Source: an uncultured bacterium (GTDB lineage Bacteria; Cyanobacteriota; Vampirovibrionia; Gastranaerophilales; Gastranaerophilaceae). From it: a stretch of DNA of 64,000 bases. The notes under the pieces were generated by a model, which searched no databases, had not been told where the DNA came from, and worked only from the letters and a program-made list of their open reading frames with translations. The position numbers and the translations under genes were made by a program. Location: assembly GCA_949290355.1 (NCBI GenBank), contig CASERN010000011.1, positions 733,865 to 797,864 on the forward strand, read 5' to 3'. Below are positions 30,072-62,887 of the stretch, one piece after another (position 1 is the stretch's first letter; each line of letters opens with the position of its first letter).

Positions 30072-30223
30072 TCTGTTTCCTCTATATATATTCTAACATT
30101 TTACATTAAAGTAATTTTATTTTGTAGGAATAATAAATTTTGTAACAATATTATAAATTTTATTAAAGATTGTTCAAAAAGTTTCCGTTATGGGAATATG
30201 TGAAGAAAAGAGGAGTATGCACA

Positions 30224-30397
30224 ATGTATCATGATGAAATTTTTGAAAAAGCACTAAAAGATGTAAAAGAAGAAAGCTACAAAGCTTTGAAAAATGAAAT
30301 ATCTTCAATGGAATCTACGATTGAACGTTTTATAAAAAATGTTCTTGAATGTACTTCCAGTAGATCAGAAAGAGATTTTAACGTAAATTCAATTTAA
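30224..30397 (+). CDS. Small hypothetical protein
   Basis: The 57-residue protein reads MYHDEIFEKALKDVKEESYK and continues helical and charged, ending with Ser/Arg-rich residues. I chose the ATG at 30224 because AAGAGGAG lies 8 bases upstream. The same frame opens earlier at 30170 but without a ribosome binding site. It is closed by a terminator. A small helical adaptor or regulator is possible; no family is recognised. Confidence 0.6.
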   Translation: MYHDEIFEKALKDVKEESYKALKNEISSMESTIERFIKNVLECTSSRSERDFNVNSI

Positions 30398-53620: not shown

Positions 53621-54611
53621 AGTTGCAATTTCTGGATATTATGGATTTAAAAATTTCGGGGATGAAGCTATTTTATCTGTCCTAGTTAATCACTTAAAAG
53701 CTTTAGGGGCGGATGTTACAGTTTTTTCTAGTGATACAAAATTTACTACTGATACATATAATGTAAATTCAGTAAAACGTTTTGATATTCATAGTGTTGT
53801 CAAAACAATCAAAAATTCTGATATTTTAATCTCCGGTGGTGGCAGCCTCTTACAAGATACTACGAGCCTTAAGAGTATAATATATTATCTTTTTATAATA
53901 GCATTAGGAATTTTATTTAGTAAAAAAGTTATTATATTCGCTCAAGGTATTGGACCTATAAACAATTTGTTTGCCAAATTTATAACTAAAAATTTGTTAA
54001 AATTATGTTCATATGTTTCAGTAAGGGATCAAAATAGTTATAACCTTTTAAAAAATTGGAATGTAGATGTAAAGTTAGTTTGTGATCCTATATATTCGGT
54101 CAATGTCCCTTATTCAGACACAACTGGAATTATTGGGATTCAGTTAAGAGAATTTAAAACAATGAACTACAATTTAATTCACAAACTTGCTATGCTTGTT
54201 GCTTCAAAGTTTACAAATTATAAAGTTAAAATTTTTTCACTACAAGAAACTCAGGATCTTGACCTGGCAAAACAATTTGAACATTTATTGCATACATTGA
54301 ATTCTGAAATTTCAACGGATATTATTACTGATGATATTATTGAAAATTTATCAAAACTTGAATATTTAATTGCAATGAGATTTCACGCTTTACTTGTCGC
54401 AATGAAAGCTGGTGTTAAATCATGTGCAATAAATTATGACATAAAAGTTGAAAAACTCGCTAATGATGCATCAATTCCTGAAATATCAATGGATGCATCT
54501 GAAAATTTCGAAGAAATCTTTGATGCATTAAAAAACCTTAATAAAGATGACTTATTAAGGTTTGCAAATTCAAAATCTTTTGATTGGACAGATTTTGACA
54601 ATTTATTTTGA
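53613..54611 (+). CDS. csaB: Polysaccharide pyruvyl transferase (CsaB family)
   Basis: This 332-residue protein has the CsaB pattern: VAISGYYGFKNFGDEAIL, ILISGGGSLLQDTTSLKSII, KKVIIFAQGIGPI, SVRDQNSY and LEYLIAMRFHALLVAMKAG. CsaB adds ketal pyruvate to a wall-linked polysaccharide so that SLH domains can bind; an SLH protein is encoded at 27486. I chose the ATG at 53613 with AGAGG upstream. The longer frame from 53583 lies within kdgK and has no ribosome binding site. Convergent overlap of 9 bp with the EF-hand gene. Confidence 0.9.
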   Translation: MAKVAISGYYGFKNFGDEAILSVLVNHLKALGADVTVFSSDTKFTTDTYNVNSVKRFDIHSVVKTIKNSDILISGGGSLLQDTTSLKSIIYYLFIIALGILFSKKVIIFAQGIGPINNLFAKFITKNLLKLCSYVSVRDQNSYNLLKNWNVDVKLVCDPIYSVNVPYSDTTGIIGIQLREFKTMNYNLIHKLAMLVASKFTNYKVKIFSLQETQDLDLAKQFEHLLHTLNSEISTDIITDDIIENLSKLEYLIAMRFHALLVAMKAGVKSCAINYDIKVEKLANDASIPEISMDASENFEEIFDALKNLNKDDLLRFANSKSFDWTDFDNLF

Positions 54612-55454
54612 GTCTTTAAATAAGCTTCGATAGTTTTTTTGCATTGCAGTATCAAAATCATTAGTTGATGATGATTTCATTAAAATGCTCCAGTTATCAA
54701 AATCTTTTTTATCTATTTTTCCATCTAAAGAATTTTTATCTGTAGAACTAGTATCAAAAGTCGCAAATACTGATGATAATTCTTTCCAGTCAACAACACC
54801 ATCTTTATTTGTATCAACTTTATTAAAAGCGTTCATAGCTAAATATGTAGCCTCTTGTTTTTGTGCCTCTGTTGCATTACTATCCAACTTGCTTAATTCA
54901 TGGTCTACAAATTCCTTTTGAGAAACTTTACCATCTTTATTTGAATCAATTAATGCACCATAAGATTTTCCTAATTCACTTAAATCATTTTTATATTTAT
55001 CACTTGATTCTGCAGAAGCAATGCTTATCTCTGTGAAATTACTATCTGATGCTGTATCAAAAGCTTTCCCTTTAGAAGTATCTTGATTTTTATCAATATC
55101 TCCCGCATACTCATTATTCATTTGATTTGTAACATTGTTTTGATTTAAAAAGCCAAAATAAGATGGAGATGCCCCGTTCATTGCATTTTGATACAAAGAT
55201 TGACCATATTGATAGGCAATCATATTACCCATTTGACGGTTTGCACAGTTAAAGGAGTTATTTGGTAACCATGAAAATCCCATTGGATCAGCATACATTT
55301 GAGCCATGCCACAATATCCGCCAAAATTACCAAAGCCAAATATGCTCCCGCATTTCGCAGATTTTAAAGCAATTGAAGTGGCTGTGGTTTGCAAAAGTCC
55401 ATTTCCAAATTGTGTTAAACTATTACCTATATTTTGCCAAGATATATTTGCCAT
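54603..55454 (-). CDS. EF-hand protein of the AGCAATT-element group
   Basis: This 283-residue protein has a Gly/Asn/Ala-rich N-terminal half without a signal peptide (MANISWQNIGNSLTQFGNGL, then GSIFGFGNFGGYCGM). The C-terminal half has calcium-loop motifs: DSNKDGKVSQKEF, DTNKDGVVDWKEL, and a weaker third one around LDGKIDKKDF. The first two loops have all usual acidic ligands. A GGAGAG site and a strong bipartite AGCAATT element lie upstream, as for the three NNFFG-motif genes. Its role is unknown; calcium-dependent folding after export is plausible. Confidence 0.78.
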   Translation of the reverse strand: MANISWQNIGNSLTQFGNGLLQTTATSIALKSAKCGSIFGFGNFGGYCGMAQMYADPMGFSWLPNNSFNCANRQMGNMIAYQYGQSLYQNAMNGASPSYFGFLNQNNVTNQMNNEYAGDIDKNQDTSKGKAFDTASDSNFTEISIASAESSDKYKNDLSELGKSYGALIDSNKDGKVSQKEFVDHELSKLDSNATEAQKQEATYLAMNAFNKVDTNKDGVVDWKELSSVFATFDTSSTDKNSLDGKIDKKDFDNWSILMKSSSTNDFDTAMQKNYRSLFKDSK

Positions 55455-59017: not shown

Positions 59018-61129
59018 TTAACTGTATATTTTGAATGTTCTTTCGATATTTTTATCAATAGCTGTTTTTATAGAATCATATTCTGTTTGTAATGAATTAT
59101 GTTCTGTATCAATATTTTTTAATTCAAGATCATATTTTTTATCTTTATTTTCAATTTTATTCATTGCTGCATTATATTCTGCTTCTGCAATAGTAACAGC
59201 AGCATTATTTGTCTGTTCGGTAATATCGCTACAATTTGAATATGATAAAGTATTCCATGTTGAATTAGAATCAACCTGCTCCATTGTTACCAAACCACTT
59301 TCCAATGCAAACTGAATCCATTCTGAGCTGGAAGCAAGCCCATCTTGTAATACTTTATAATTATCTTTTGTACCATTACCCATTCTTTCAAATAGGTTTG
59401 CATACCATTGATATTTAGCCTCTCCGTTTTCATTTTGGTTATTTGTATCAATCCAAGTATATTTAGGTTCTCCATAAGTGTTGAATACTCTATCCAAAAT
59501 AATTACGTCGTATATCGGCTGAAAATTACTTTGCATGTTACCACCAGCCTGACCAAGTTTTTCCCAAACATAGTCTAAATCAACTAAATTAGGTATTTCA
59601 TCAAAGGCACAAATTGAATTACCATGAATATCTAAGAAATTGTTATTAGTATCAAATACAGGAGCTCCAGTTGAATCAGTTTTTACATCATAACCAAATG
59701 ATTTTAGCAATTCTGCAGCAGCTGAAACATAAGCTTTGTATTCTGTAGTATCTTTTTCAGGTGCAAATTTTGCACTATCCCAATGAGCATAAATACCTTC
59801 ATCAAGAGAATTAACTATAGAGCTCAAAATTTCTTTTATATATTCAAAATCTGTTAAATCGTATTCTGATTTTATATTAAAAGAGCTTGCAGTATTGTAG
59901 CTTTTCCATAAATCTTCATCTTCAAATATATCATCAATAGAAGTTTTTCCTGCAACATCTATACTATTAATTGAATATGTCGCACTAGTTTTATCTGTTC
60001 CATCTTCTTGAGGTTCTTTTATTAAAACTGCATTTTTTTCCTGATCATATTCTCCTTTTCGAGTTGTATCTTCAACTAATTCGTTGGTTTTTTCATCAAT
60101 ATTGTAAAGTTTTACAATATATGGGTTATCGGCATTTTCATCAGGATTTTTATAAATTCTAAATACAGTATCACAATCTTCAATTCCTAATTCTAAATCA
60201 TTTTTACTATTATTTAGTTCAATATAATTTCCTGAAGCGTCAGTACCCAATTTAACTTCGCTATTACTTTGGTTAAAACTTCTGCCTTTAATTGATTCTG
60301 TTTCTGCTATTAAATCATCAAAAAATTTAATATCAGATGTATCCCCGGCATAAGTTTTACAACTATCAATAACTCCGCCTAAACTGTCGATTATATTTGA
60401 AATATCAACAGCAGTAGTTTCTTCATCAATATTTTCAATTTGGTCAAGTAAATCAGATTTCATAAACTTACTATATTCTGCTTCAATATTACTTGATAAT
60501 TTTTCAGAATAAGATGTATATGCAGAGTCAAAGTTTGTGAGTGCACTTTGAAAAGCATAGTATTCAGGGCTAGCAATGGTTGAAGCATAACCCGGGTGGA
60601 TTGAACTACCATTTATACCTTCATAATATGCTCTCAGTTCATCACCGGTAAGTCCTGTAGAGAACATTTCATTAGTACCATCATCGTTCATATTACCAGT
60701 CATGTATTGAACTTTTCCACTTGAATCTAAAGTAAAACTTGTATCATCAAAATAAGTAGAATTATATTCTAGTCCATAGTAACTTACAAATTTTTCTAAA
60801 CTACCATTAGCGTTTTGATAATTTTTAGCATCCTGTTCTGATACTAAAATTTGACCTGATGCATTTGACAATCCATACTGGTTATTATATGGATTGTAAT
60901 TTGTCATAGAATTAAAAGTTAATTGTTGATAACTTGCATTGTTATTAGAATCATAATTAGTAAACATCAATTGTGCATTATTAAGAGCATTTACATAAGC
61001 TTCACTCACTTGAGAACTTTCAGTTGCAAGACGCAATTTATTATTGTTGATAATCTGAGCTCTTAACTCGTTATCAGACATACGAGAGGTTATTGATAAT
61101 AGTCTAGCTTGTCCTGCAGCCATTCCCAT
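59018..61129 (-). CDS. 703-residue protein with sigma-28-type promoter, unknown function
   Basis: The N-terminus (MGMAAGQARLLSITSRMSDN) and the following helix (AQIINNNKLRLATESSQVSE) have no signal peptide. The helical start and helical, charged end flank a long Asn/Asp/Ser/Tyr-rich middle. This distribution resembles flagellin- or hook-type proteins exported by a type III apparatus. I do not recognise a named family. The final 60 residues form a coiled coil (MNKIENKDKKYDLELKNID). AAAGG precedes the ATG. The promoter at 61176 matches the flagellar sigma-28 consensus, which supports a late-flagellar or secreted role (inference). Confidence 0.75.
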   Translation of the reverse strand: MGMAAGQARLLSITSRMSDNELRAQIINNNKLRLATESSQVSEAYVNALNNAQLMFTNYDSNNNASYQQLTFNSMTNYNPYNNQYGLSNASGQILVSEQDAKNYQNANGSLEKFVSYYGLEYNSTYFDDTSFTLDSSGKVQYMTGNMNDDGTNEMFSTGLTGDELRAYYEGINGSSIHPGYASTIASPEYYAFQSALTNFDSAYTSYSEKLSSNIEAEYSKFMKSDLLDQIENIDEETTAVDISNIIDSLGGVIDSCKTYAGDTSDIKFFDDLIAETESIKGRSFNQSNSEVKLGTDASGNYIELNNSKNDLELGIEDCDTVFRIYKNPDENADNPYIVKLYNIDEKTNELVEDTTRKGEYDQEKNAVLIKEPQEDGTDKTSATYSINSIDVAGKTSIDDIFEDEDLWKSYNTASSFNIKSEYDLTDFEYIKEILSSIVNSLDEGIYAHWDSAKFAPEKDTTEYKAYVSAAAELLKSFGYDVKTDSTGAPVFDTNNNFLDIHGNSICAFDEIPNLVDLDYVWEKLGQAGGNMQSNFQPIYDVIILDRVFNTYGEPKYTWIDTNNQNENGEAKYQWYANLFERMGNGTKDNYKVLQDGLASSSEWIQFALESGLVTMEQVDSNSTWNTLSYSNCSDITEQTNNAAVTIAEAEYNAAMNKIENKDKKYDLELKNIDTEHNSLQTEYDSIKTAIDKNIERTFKIYS

Positions 61130-61175
61130 AGTTGATGATTACCTTTCAATTTTCCTTAGTAACTTTCAATATGGT

Positions 61176-61203
61176 ATATCGGCTTATTTTAAGAAAAACT
61201 TTA
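61176..61203 (-). promoter_or_regulatory. Sigma-28 (FliA/SigD)-type promoter
   Basis: On the minus strand TAAAGTTT, 12 bases, GCCGATAT, about 47 bases before the ATG. The known consensus is TAAA (TAAAGTTT), a spacer putting GCCGATAA/T about 15 bases after TAAA. The spacer here is one longer. Confidence 0.7.
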
Positions 61204-62296: not shown

Positions 62297-62887
62297 TTAC
62301 TTATTTTGAATTTCAATACTTCTTTTGCTACAGTATTGAATTAATGTCATTCGATCTTTTGCAACTTTATACTCAAATCTTCCTGACACAGTATACCCAT
62401 TATTCTCGTTTTTCTCAATTCTTATTGGACTGAAAAAGCATGAAATAGACTGTTCTTCTGATAAAGGTATAGTAATTTGATATTTACCATCTATATTTAT
62501 GTTTTCATTGGTAATAAATTTCATACCACCAGCAGAAATATCAAGAGTAATAATCTTATATTCCTTATTATCCAGAAGTAAACCTAGCTCTTCTTTAAAT
62601 TTAATACGGGTATATTGACGTCTTTGCAAAAATCTATGTTTTGCTGGCGTTGCTACTACAATTTTTTTACCCTCAATTTTTTCAGGATATGAATCAAAAT
62701 ATAAAGTTCCATGAGTAGTTTGAGTATAAAATTCGCAGTAATTATGACGCATAATCCCACTTGGTTCAAATTCTAATTCAATTGTAAAATATTTTGGTTC
62801 TACTTCAGTAATAATGCCTTTATTAGCGCATTTAAAATCTGATGGAACAACAGTGATTTTTCTATTTTTTTCAATTAGTTCTCTCAT
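62297..62887 (-). CDS. PilZ-domain protein (probable c-di-GMP receptor)
   Basis: This 196-residue protein has a YcgR-N-like first half and a C-terminal PilZ domain. The c-di-GMP motifs are RRQYTRIKF (R-x-x-x-R) and LDISAGGMKF (D-x-S-x-x-G). Both are intact, so binding is likely. YcgR-type proteins slow the flagellar motor or alter surface traits. The ATG at 62887 was chosen because AAAGGA lies just upstream; a promoter (62910-62938) sits inside the longer alternative frame. Confidence 0.9.
   Translation of the reverse strand: MRELIEKNRKITVVPSDFKCANKGIITEVEPKYFTIELEFEPSGIMRHNYCEFYTQTTHGTLYFDSYPEKIEGKKIVVATPAKHRFLQRRQYTRIKFKEELGLLLDNKEYKIITLDISAGGMKFITNENINIDGKYQITIPLSEEQSISCFFSPIRIEKNENNGYTVSGRFEYKVAKDRMTLIQYCSKRSIEIQNK

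Follow-up and report, generated by a model that had tools for sequence, protein, structure and literature searches.

The DNA analysed here (the window) is a 64,000-nucleotide stretch of an uncultured bacterium of the Gastranaerophilaceae (contig CASERN010000011.1 of assembly GCA_949290355.1, positions 733,865 to 797,864 of the forward strand). On its minus strand, at 61176-61203, lies a sigma-28 (FliA) promoter, followed by the gene for a 703-residue protein (59018-61129, minus strand). Judged from the sequence, its conservation and the presence of FliA, this promoter is predicted to be FliA-dependent. This protein is one member of a multi-copy family that has no name and a predicted helical-hairpin plan, and the family provides the chief shared members of the FliA regulon in the order Gastranaerophilales. 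The order also retains, independently of the flagellum, a second system of the flagellar proteins FlhA and FliF. We consider it probable that the hairpin proteins driven by sigma-28 are exported through this second flagellum-type apparatus, with its FlhA (FlhA-2) as the predicted gate.

The promoter reads TAAAGTTT-N12-GCCGATAT (full site letters TAAAGTTTTTCTTAAAATAAGCCGATAT, minus strand), which joins a TAAAG -35-like box to a GCCGATAA -10-like box at the fixed spacing of a sigma-28 promoter. A sequence-only reading of the window had placed a sigma-28-type site at exactly this position. The ATG of the 703-residue open reading frame (ORF) lies 46 nt downstream, and a likely ribosome binding site, GAAAGG, can be read at 61142-61147 (minus strand), 12 nt 5' of the ATG. 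The pattern TAAAGTTT-N11..13-GCCGATAW matches once in the window and not at all in 100 dinucleotide shuffles. Genome-wide, the strict pattern has two matches versus none for the reversed control pattern. When up to three mismatches are allowed, the window contains 4 matches versus 1.47 expected, so that the exact site alone stands out by sequence. The looser pattern TAAAG-N16-YCGWNAW occurs 25 times in this AT-rich genome versus 23 times for its reversed control. The number of loose sites is about that of the background, and the signal is in their location. Genome-wide counts of loose sites were therefore dropped as evidence, and position and conservation were used instead.

FliA of this genome scores 241.9 bits with TIGR02479 (cut-off 189.6), and exactly one fliA over the cut-off is present in each of the 117 Gastranaerophilales genomes that were sampled for all order-wide counts. 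Six of the 25 loose sites in the genome lie directly 5' of a gene of the hairpin family, so that six of its eight paralog genes, the window gene counted, carry one. Inspection by eye adds a seventh paralog, whose upstream site deviates by a single mismatch. Other promoters of the GCCGATAA/T type, which the sequence-only reading had proposed to look for, do exist, and the tight ones mostly precede paralogs of the 703-residue protein. The same position is conserved in related loci (79 from named genomes; the best 80 of 488 relatives). There the strict site occurs at most 160 nt upstream of 40 of 68 family starts versus 0.08 expected from mononucleotide shuffling. Counted by ORF, it precedes 39 of 67 family genes versus 3 of 328 other ORFs of at least 100 aa. 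These three proved to be family members by sequence, with SQAK replacing SQAR, and the corrected split is 42 of 70 family genes versus 0 of 325 other ORFs. The distance from TAAA to YCG is 17 nt in 43 of 65 upstream regions; the other spacings from 13 to 20 nt gave 0-6, and shuffles 0.6. Among the flagellin starts recognised in relatives (22 in 26 loci; for family f1, 13 of 20), 7 of 22 have a like site, and this links the motif to FliA. A scan of six loci at one spacing showed no site beside any flagellin start. Sigma-28 control of flagellin is thus seen only in part in the order.

The sequence-only reading had also called the promoter the only such sequence. This holds for the strict form, of which the window has one copy, and not for a looser site of the same spacing, TAAAGATT-N12-TCCGTTAT, at 30164-30191 on the plus strand. 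By its pattern this second site is a probable member of the regulon. A 57-aa, helical-looking ORF (MYHDEIFEKALKD...) can be read 32 nt downstream (30224-30397, plus strand). Elsewhere in the genome, intergenic sigma-28-like sites stand 5' of small proteins at C4:14201, C4:31685, C4:38317, C8:157825, C11:380829, C11:880941 and C11:1029261 (contig:position), and these genes are possible further members of the regulon. Another sigma-28-like site, at C11:2587, is followed by a 303-aa protein (C11:2640-3551) with an MgtE_N match over the cut-off (29.9 bits). The fold of FliG resembles that of MgtE_N.

The 703-residue protein, encoded by an ORF with an ATG start and with homologues, matches no Pfam or NCBIfam family over the cut-off, in agreement with its earlier description as unrecognised. 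Among 40 family members no covering model was found in these databases, only single weak matches. The eight full-length paralogs of this genome (324-703 aa, the 703-residue protein included) have their first ~50 and last ~60 residues in common, with ends of the form MG[ML]AA[SG]QAR... and ...DTE...TEY..., and they differ in the length and sequence of the middle domain. Full-length relatives at named loci have 336-838 aa (n=66). The family is present, in several copies, in 117 of 117 genomes and 31 of 31 genera, with a weakest best E-value of 9.7e-8. Most titles among the best 80 of 488 relatives are Gastranaerophilales, Melainabacteria or unnamed; the few others (Heliobacteriaceae, Fusobacterium sp. 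CAG:439 and Brachyspira) are taken as putative mislabelled bins. A tblastn search of the family against 72,556 plasmid records gave no match.

The predicted structure of the 703-residue protein, made with 40 sequences, has a mean predicted local distance difference test score (pLDDT) of 84.3 and a predicted template modelling score (pTM) of 0.56. It consists of a conserved N-terminal helix (residues 2-50; 60980-61126; pLDDT 75-89 per block), a large variable middle domain of predicted strands and helices (residues 51-641; 59207-60979) and a conserved C-terminal helix (residues 642-702; 59024-59206), all on the minus strand. The model agrees with the helical ends and polar middle proposed earlier, and the same plan is predicted at lower confidence for a 336-aa relative (pLDDT 64.2). 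As modelled, the succession helix-middle-helix is the layout of flagellar axial proteins. N-terminal Asn/Ser/Thr-rich stretches and "FG" motifs were weak as candidates for a wider export signal in other proteins and were both dropped: [NSTP]F[GK] occurs within residues 1-50 in 25 and within residues 51-100 in 10 of 276 proteins, and NSTQ-rich starts number 5 versus 3. Two telomerase rows (E 0.02-0.03), obtained with a profile of the family alignment against solved structures, were taken as chance.

Two family members, at C11:287585 and C11:289870, are encoded 5-8 kb from fliE. The second of these (C11:289870-290202) is a protein of 110 aa that is nearly just the two ends of the family, 5 kb from fliE, and upstream of its gene are a 90-aa ORF and, at C11:289431, a sigma-28-like site. 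Could it be a needle- or rod-like minimal member?

The genome, which is 99.96% complete, encodes FlhA (PF00771, 731 bits), and FliE (63.2 bits), FliF and FliH adjoin it by Pfam at C11:295080-301066. FlgB, FlgC and two FlgF/G-type rod proteins are encoded on C7 within 6 kb of fliA, and FlhB (381.9 bits) occurs together with a FlgE/F/G-type protein in the region C11:646979-655786. FliJ-like and FliK-like matches were under their cut-offs. The M-ring, export gate and rod of a canonical flagellum are present in this set (FliF, FlhA, FlhB, FliE, FlgB/C/G), and the flagellin filament is not: no protein of the genome passes the flagellin model PF00669 (best 14.6 bits, cut-off 26.6). Lacking flagellin, the apparatus of this genome does not qualify as a canonical flagellum. 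Injectisomes are characterised by the lack of the flagellum-specific proteins FlgB, FlgC and FliE, and by its predicted FliE and rod proteins the apparatus is of the flagellar type rather than an injectisome. The sequence-only reading had staked its proposal on a sigma-28 gene and an export apparatus, and both were found (FliA; FlhA, FlhB, FliE, FliF, FliH and rod). Of its wording "flagellar or flagellum-derived", the latter fits, but an ordinary flagellum does not, with no flagellin over the cut-off.

Flagellin is present in 36 of the 117 genomes, and the FlhA and FliF proteins of the order fall into two classes. FlhA of class 1 (857.9-889 bits) occurs in 34 genomes and FliF of class 1 (167-193 bits) in 35, all of them flagellin-bearing. 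FlhA of class 2 (576-737 bits) and FliF of class 2 (101-128 bits) each occur in 114 of 117 genomes, and both are missing from the same three (G034, G085 and G111). Among the genomes that lack flagellin, 79 of 81 have the second system and none of 81 has the first. The second FlhA/FliF system is retained independently of the flagellum.

In three relatives (G010, G011 and G005) the two sets occupy separate gene clusters. The first cluster is fliP-fliQ-fliR-flhB-flhA, named by resemblance save for FlhA. The second is flgF-flgG-flgB-flgC-transglycosylase-fliE-fliF-[unknown]-fliH-flhA, and in G011 a gene for a type III ATPase comes next; here the transglycosylase (SLT) and the ATPase were named by Pfam, FliF and FlhA by profile, and the others because they resemble the scanned proteins of the present genome. 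A tree of 29 FlhA rows (14 FlhA-2, 8 FlhA-1 and an outgroup of 4 FlhA and 3 SctV) places FlhA-1 and FlhA-2 in separate clades, each with support of 100/100. Two pairs of genomes, G010/G005 and G097/G065, are seen again in each of these clades, which is the pattern expected of vertical descent. The deep position of FlhA-2 is tentative: it tends to group with SctV against the flagellar rows (92/90), on long branches and with seven outgroup rows, and a clade of FlhA-1 and FlhA-2 is not firmly rejected, with a p value of 0.058 in the approximately unbiased test (p-AU).

Most genomes of the order have additional FlhA matches beyond the two full classes. In this genome a 492-aa protein (C6:10724-12202) corresponds solely to the cytoplasmic C-terminal portion of FlhA (positions 309-653 of PF00771, 166 bits). 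Might this protein be a soluble docking platform?

The second apparatus comprises FlhA-2, FliF-2, FliE, FliH, rod proteins and the transglycosylase, with FliI in a relative. By analogy with flagellar biology, FliA would be active once the export apparatus is ready and would turn on the hairpin proteins, linking the synthesis of substrates to the state of the apparatus. The proteins would then pass the FlhA-2 gate, the N-terminal helix leading as a putative export signal. Their hairpin ends may assemble into a short cap or fibre on the rod, or else the proteins may leave the cell, and the variable middle domains would be displayed and would differ in what they bind. We infer export, assembly and target of the family from these features together. 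A broader claim can be argued about equally well either way: that the whole order has a type III exporter derived from the flagellum yet separate from it, controlled by sigma-28, which loads a fast-diversifying, lineage-specific hairpin family onto a rod or to the outside, and that the "incomplete flagella" of gut Melainabacteria are this organelle and not relics.

Several observations weigh against export of the hairpin family through the second apparatus. The eighth paralog of this genome, at C11:287585, has no upstream site, and the strict site is missing from 28 of 70 family genes in the related loci. No family genes lie near FlhA-2 in the three relatives that were read. The protein encoded between fliF and fliH, at the position of FliG, lacks a FliG domain both here and in G005, G010 and G011 (five proteins scanned), so that the list of parts is incomplete. 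G034 and G111 have neither class of FlhA and FliF and yet keep the family and FliA, and G085 has the flagellar class only; a missing contig could explain these gaps. Finally, Foldseek gave nothing at E <=0.001 with either predicted model, and hhalign against eight flagellins of the order gave a probability of 0.1, with no sequence kinship.

In a different reading of the same parts, the second apparatus would be a flagellum or a flagellum-like fibre, possibly rotating, whose filament is built of the hairpin family and not of flagellin. This reading overlaps with export through the second apparatus. It would account for the modelled plan of N- and C-terminal helices, for several paralogs of differing size, as with multiple flagellins, and for a sigma-28 control shared with flagellin in those relatives where a like site was found. 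In the Foldseek search with the 336-aa relative, the top rows were chains of Salmonella flagellin and cap, but at an insignificant E of 0.11 and worse. In a second look (VIA), most rows were matches to helical bundles of receptor fusions (Z 9-11). The chain 9gnz_U, from the cap-filament complex of Salmonella, scored Z 9.1 over 108 residues (span 8-703), which is below the chance level for long helices; this result leaves a flagellin-type fold neither demonstrated nor excluded. None of 40 family members matches PF00669 (Flagellin_N) at E 0.01. Going by the models, the 703-residue protein may work like a relative of flagellin, but its kinship is doubtful. Together with the missing FliG domain, these results make an alternative filament unlikely, though it is the best of the alternatives.

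Decay after the loss of motility would leave scattered flagellar genes, with fliA and its targets in the course of being lost. The lack of a flagellin in this genome fits such a course, and Di Rienzi 2013 and Soo 2014, in the passages relied on here, interpret partial gene sets in this order as a sign of loss or of genome reduction still under way. However, the FlhA and FliF that remain are not the flagellar copies, since both classes occur in genomes with flagellin and only the second in those without it. The listed FlhA and FliF matches are open, full-length frames with zero internal stops. Between this genome and G012, both flagellin-less, FlhA-2 has a nonsynonymous divergence (dN) of 0.046 and a synonymous divergence (dS) of 1.467, and the ratio of about 0.03 indicates that FlhA-2 is kept by selection. 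With the second system in nearly all flagellin-less genomes, we regard decay as very improbable. It is just as hard to credit that the hairpin family acts in the cytoplasm or envelope, for example in partnership with the gliding or cell-division machinery, under a FliA control unrelated to export: two genomes do have the family and no complete FlhA, and export is a deduction, but the family is always accompanied by fliA, FlhA-2 and FliF-2 accompany it in 114 of 117 genomes, and its proteins have a hairpin architecture with conserved ends.

Near the 703-residue gene, a stand-alone PilZ protein is encoded at 62297-62887 (minus strand), as the sequence-only reading had pointed out, here in a genome without flagellin. 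It was recognised by a profile match, and its match to the YcgR type is weak (12.1 of 400 bits). The window also encodes a 283-aa EF-hand protein with no obvious signal peptide (54603-55454, minus strand), which matches a model of a calcium-binding type III effector family weakly and well under its cut-off (26.7 of 120 bits).

Immediately 5' of the family paralog at C6:39636 there is a phage head and packaging module (C6:30140-41387). By PHROGs it contains an endolysin, a major head protein, a head-tail adaptor and both terminase subunits. In six of seven IMG/VR contigs, a terminase-like gene, an ORF of 76 aa (96 aa in one) and a family gene follow one another, and in the seventh two other genes intervene. 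Five of the seven carry a strict sigma-28 site. The phage genes are perhaps a fixed, even domesticated, module, or their site an insertion hot spot.

The hosts are uncultured gut relatives of Cyanobacteria, which have been scored as "flagellated" or as having "lost flagella" from partial gene sets. The shared flagellar gene list of an earlier genome paper, as far as the part used here goes, has two ACD20 copies of flhA, located on separate contigs, and the portions of later papers cited here follow the reading of loss (PMC5877343; PMC9029806). In a search confined to one open library, no paper is, judged by title and abstract, devoted to a type III secretion or injectisome system of Gastranaerophilales or Melainabacteria, and none is described in the text drawn on from PMC7018530. 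What earlier papers described as a "partial flagellum" has the look of a second export system of the flagellum type that has been retained. Should the partial set be a separate exporter with substrates of its own, the flagellar machine would have a third use in addition to swimming and the injectisome, and these bacteria a candidate route for contact with the host or with neighbouring cells. Published motility calls and flagellar trees of the group would then mix two paralogous systems. The question of why half a flagellum should be kept becomes testable, with named genes and a promoter.

Compared with flagellin and hook-associated proteins, whose D0/D1 parts form hairpins, the family is alike in its conserved terminal helices, its variable middle and its sigma-28 control. 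It differs in that Pfam gives no match, profiles show no kinship to the flagellins of the order and fold searches yield nothing significant. The regulon resembles that of FliA/SigD in its single FliA over the NCBIfam cut-off and in TAAAG...GCCGATAA-type sites of fixed spacing 5' of late, substrate-like genes. Unlike in that regulon, the main target family here is not flagellin, and TAAA and CCG are 17 nt apart; the Escherichia coli sigma-28 consensus has one nucleotide less. The "Myxo" type III systems of Myxococcales are also flagellum-derived and without motility parts, and were first annotated as decaying relics before being argued to work, according to the sections of PMC3459982 cited here. 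Those same sections describe them as being without FlgBCDEK and FliEG, whereas FliE and FlgB/FlgC-type rod proteins are present here. Buchnera aphidicola likewise keeps basal body and export genes without flagellin, and an exporter has been proposed for it in the passages used from PMC8109811. That account concerns one reduced flagellum, in contrast to the second paralogous system found here beside a full flagellum in relatives. The system of the Gastranaerophilales differs further from that of Buchnera in having its own large family of candidate substrates under sigma-28.
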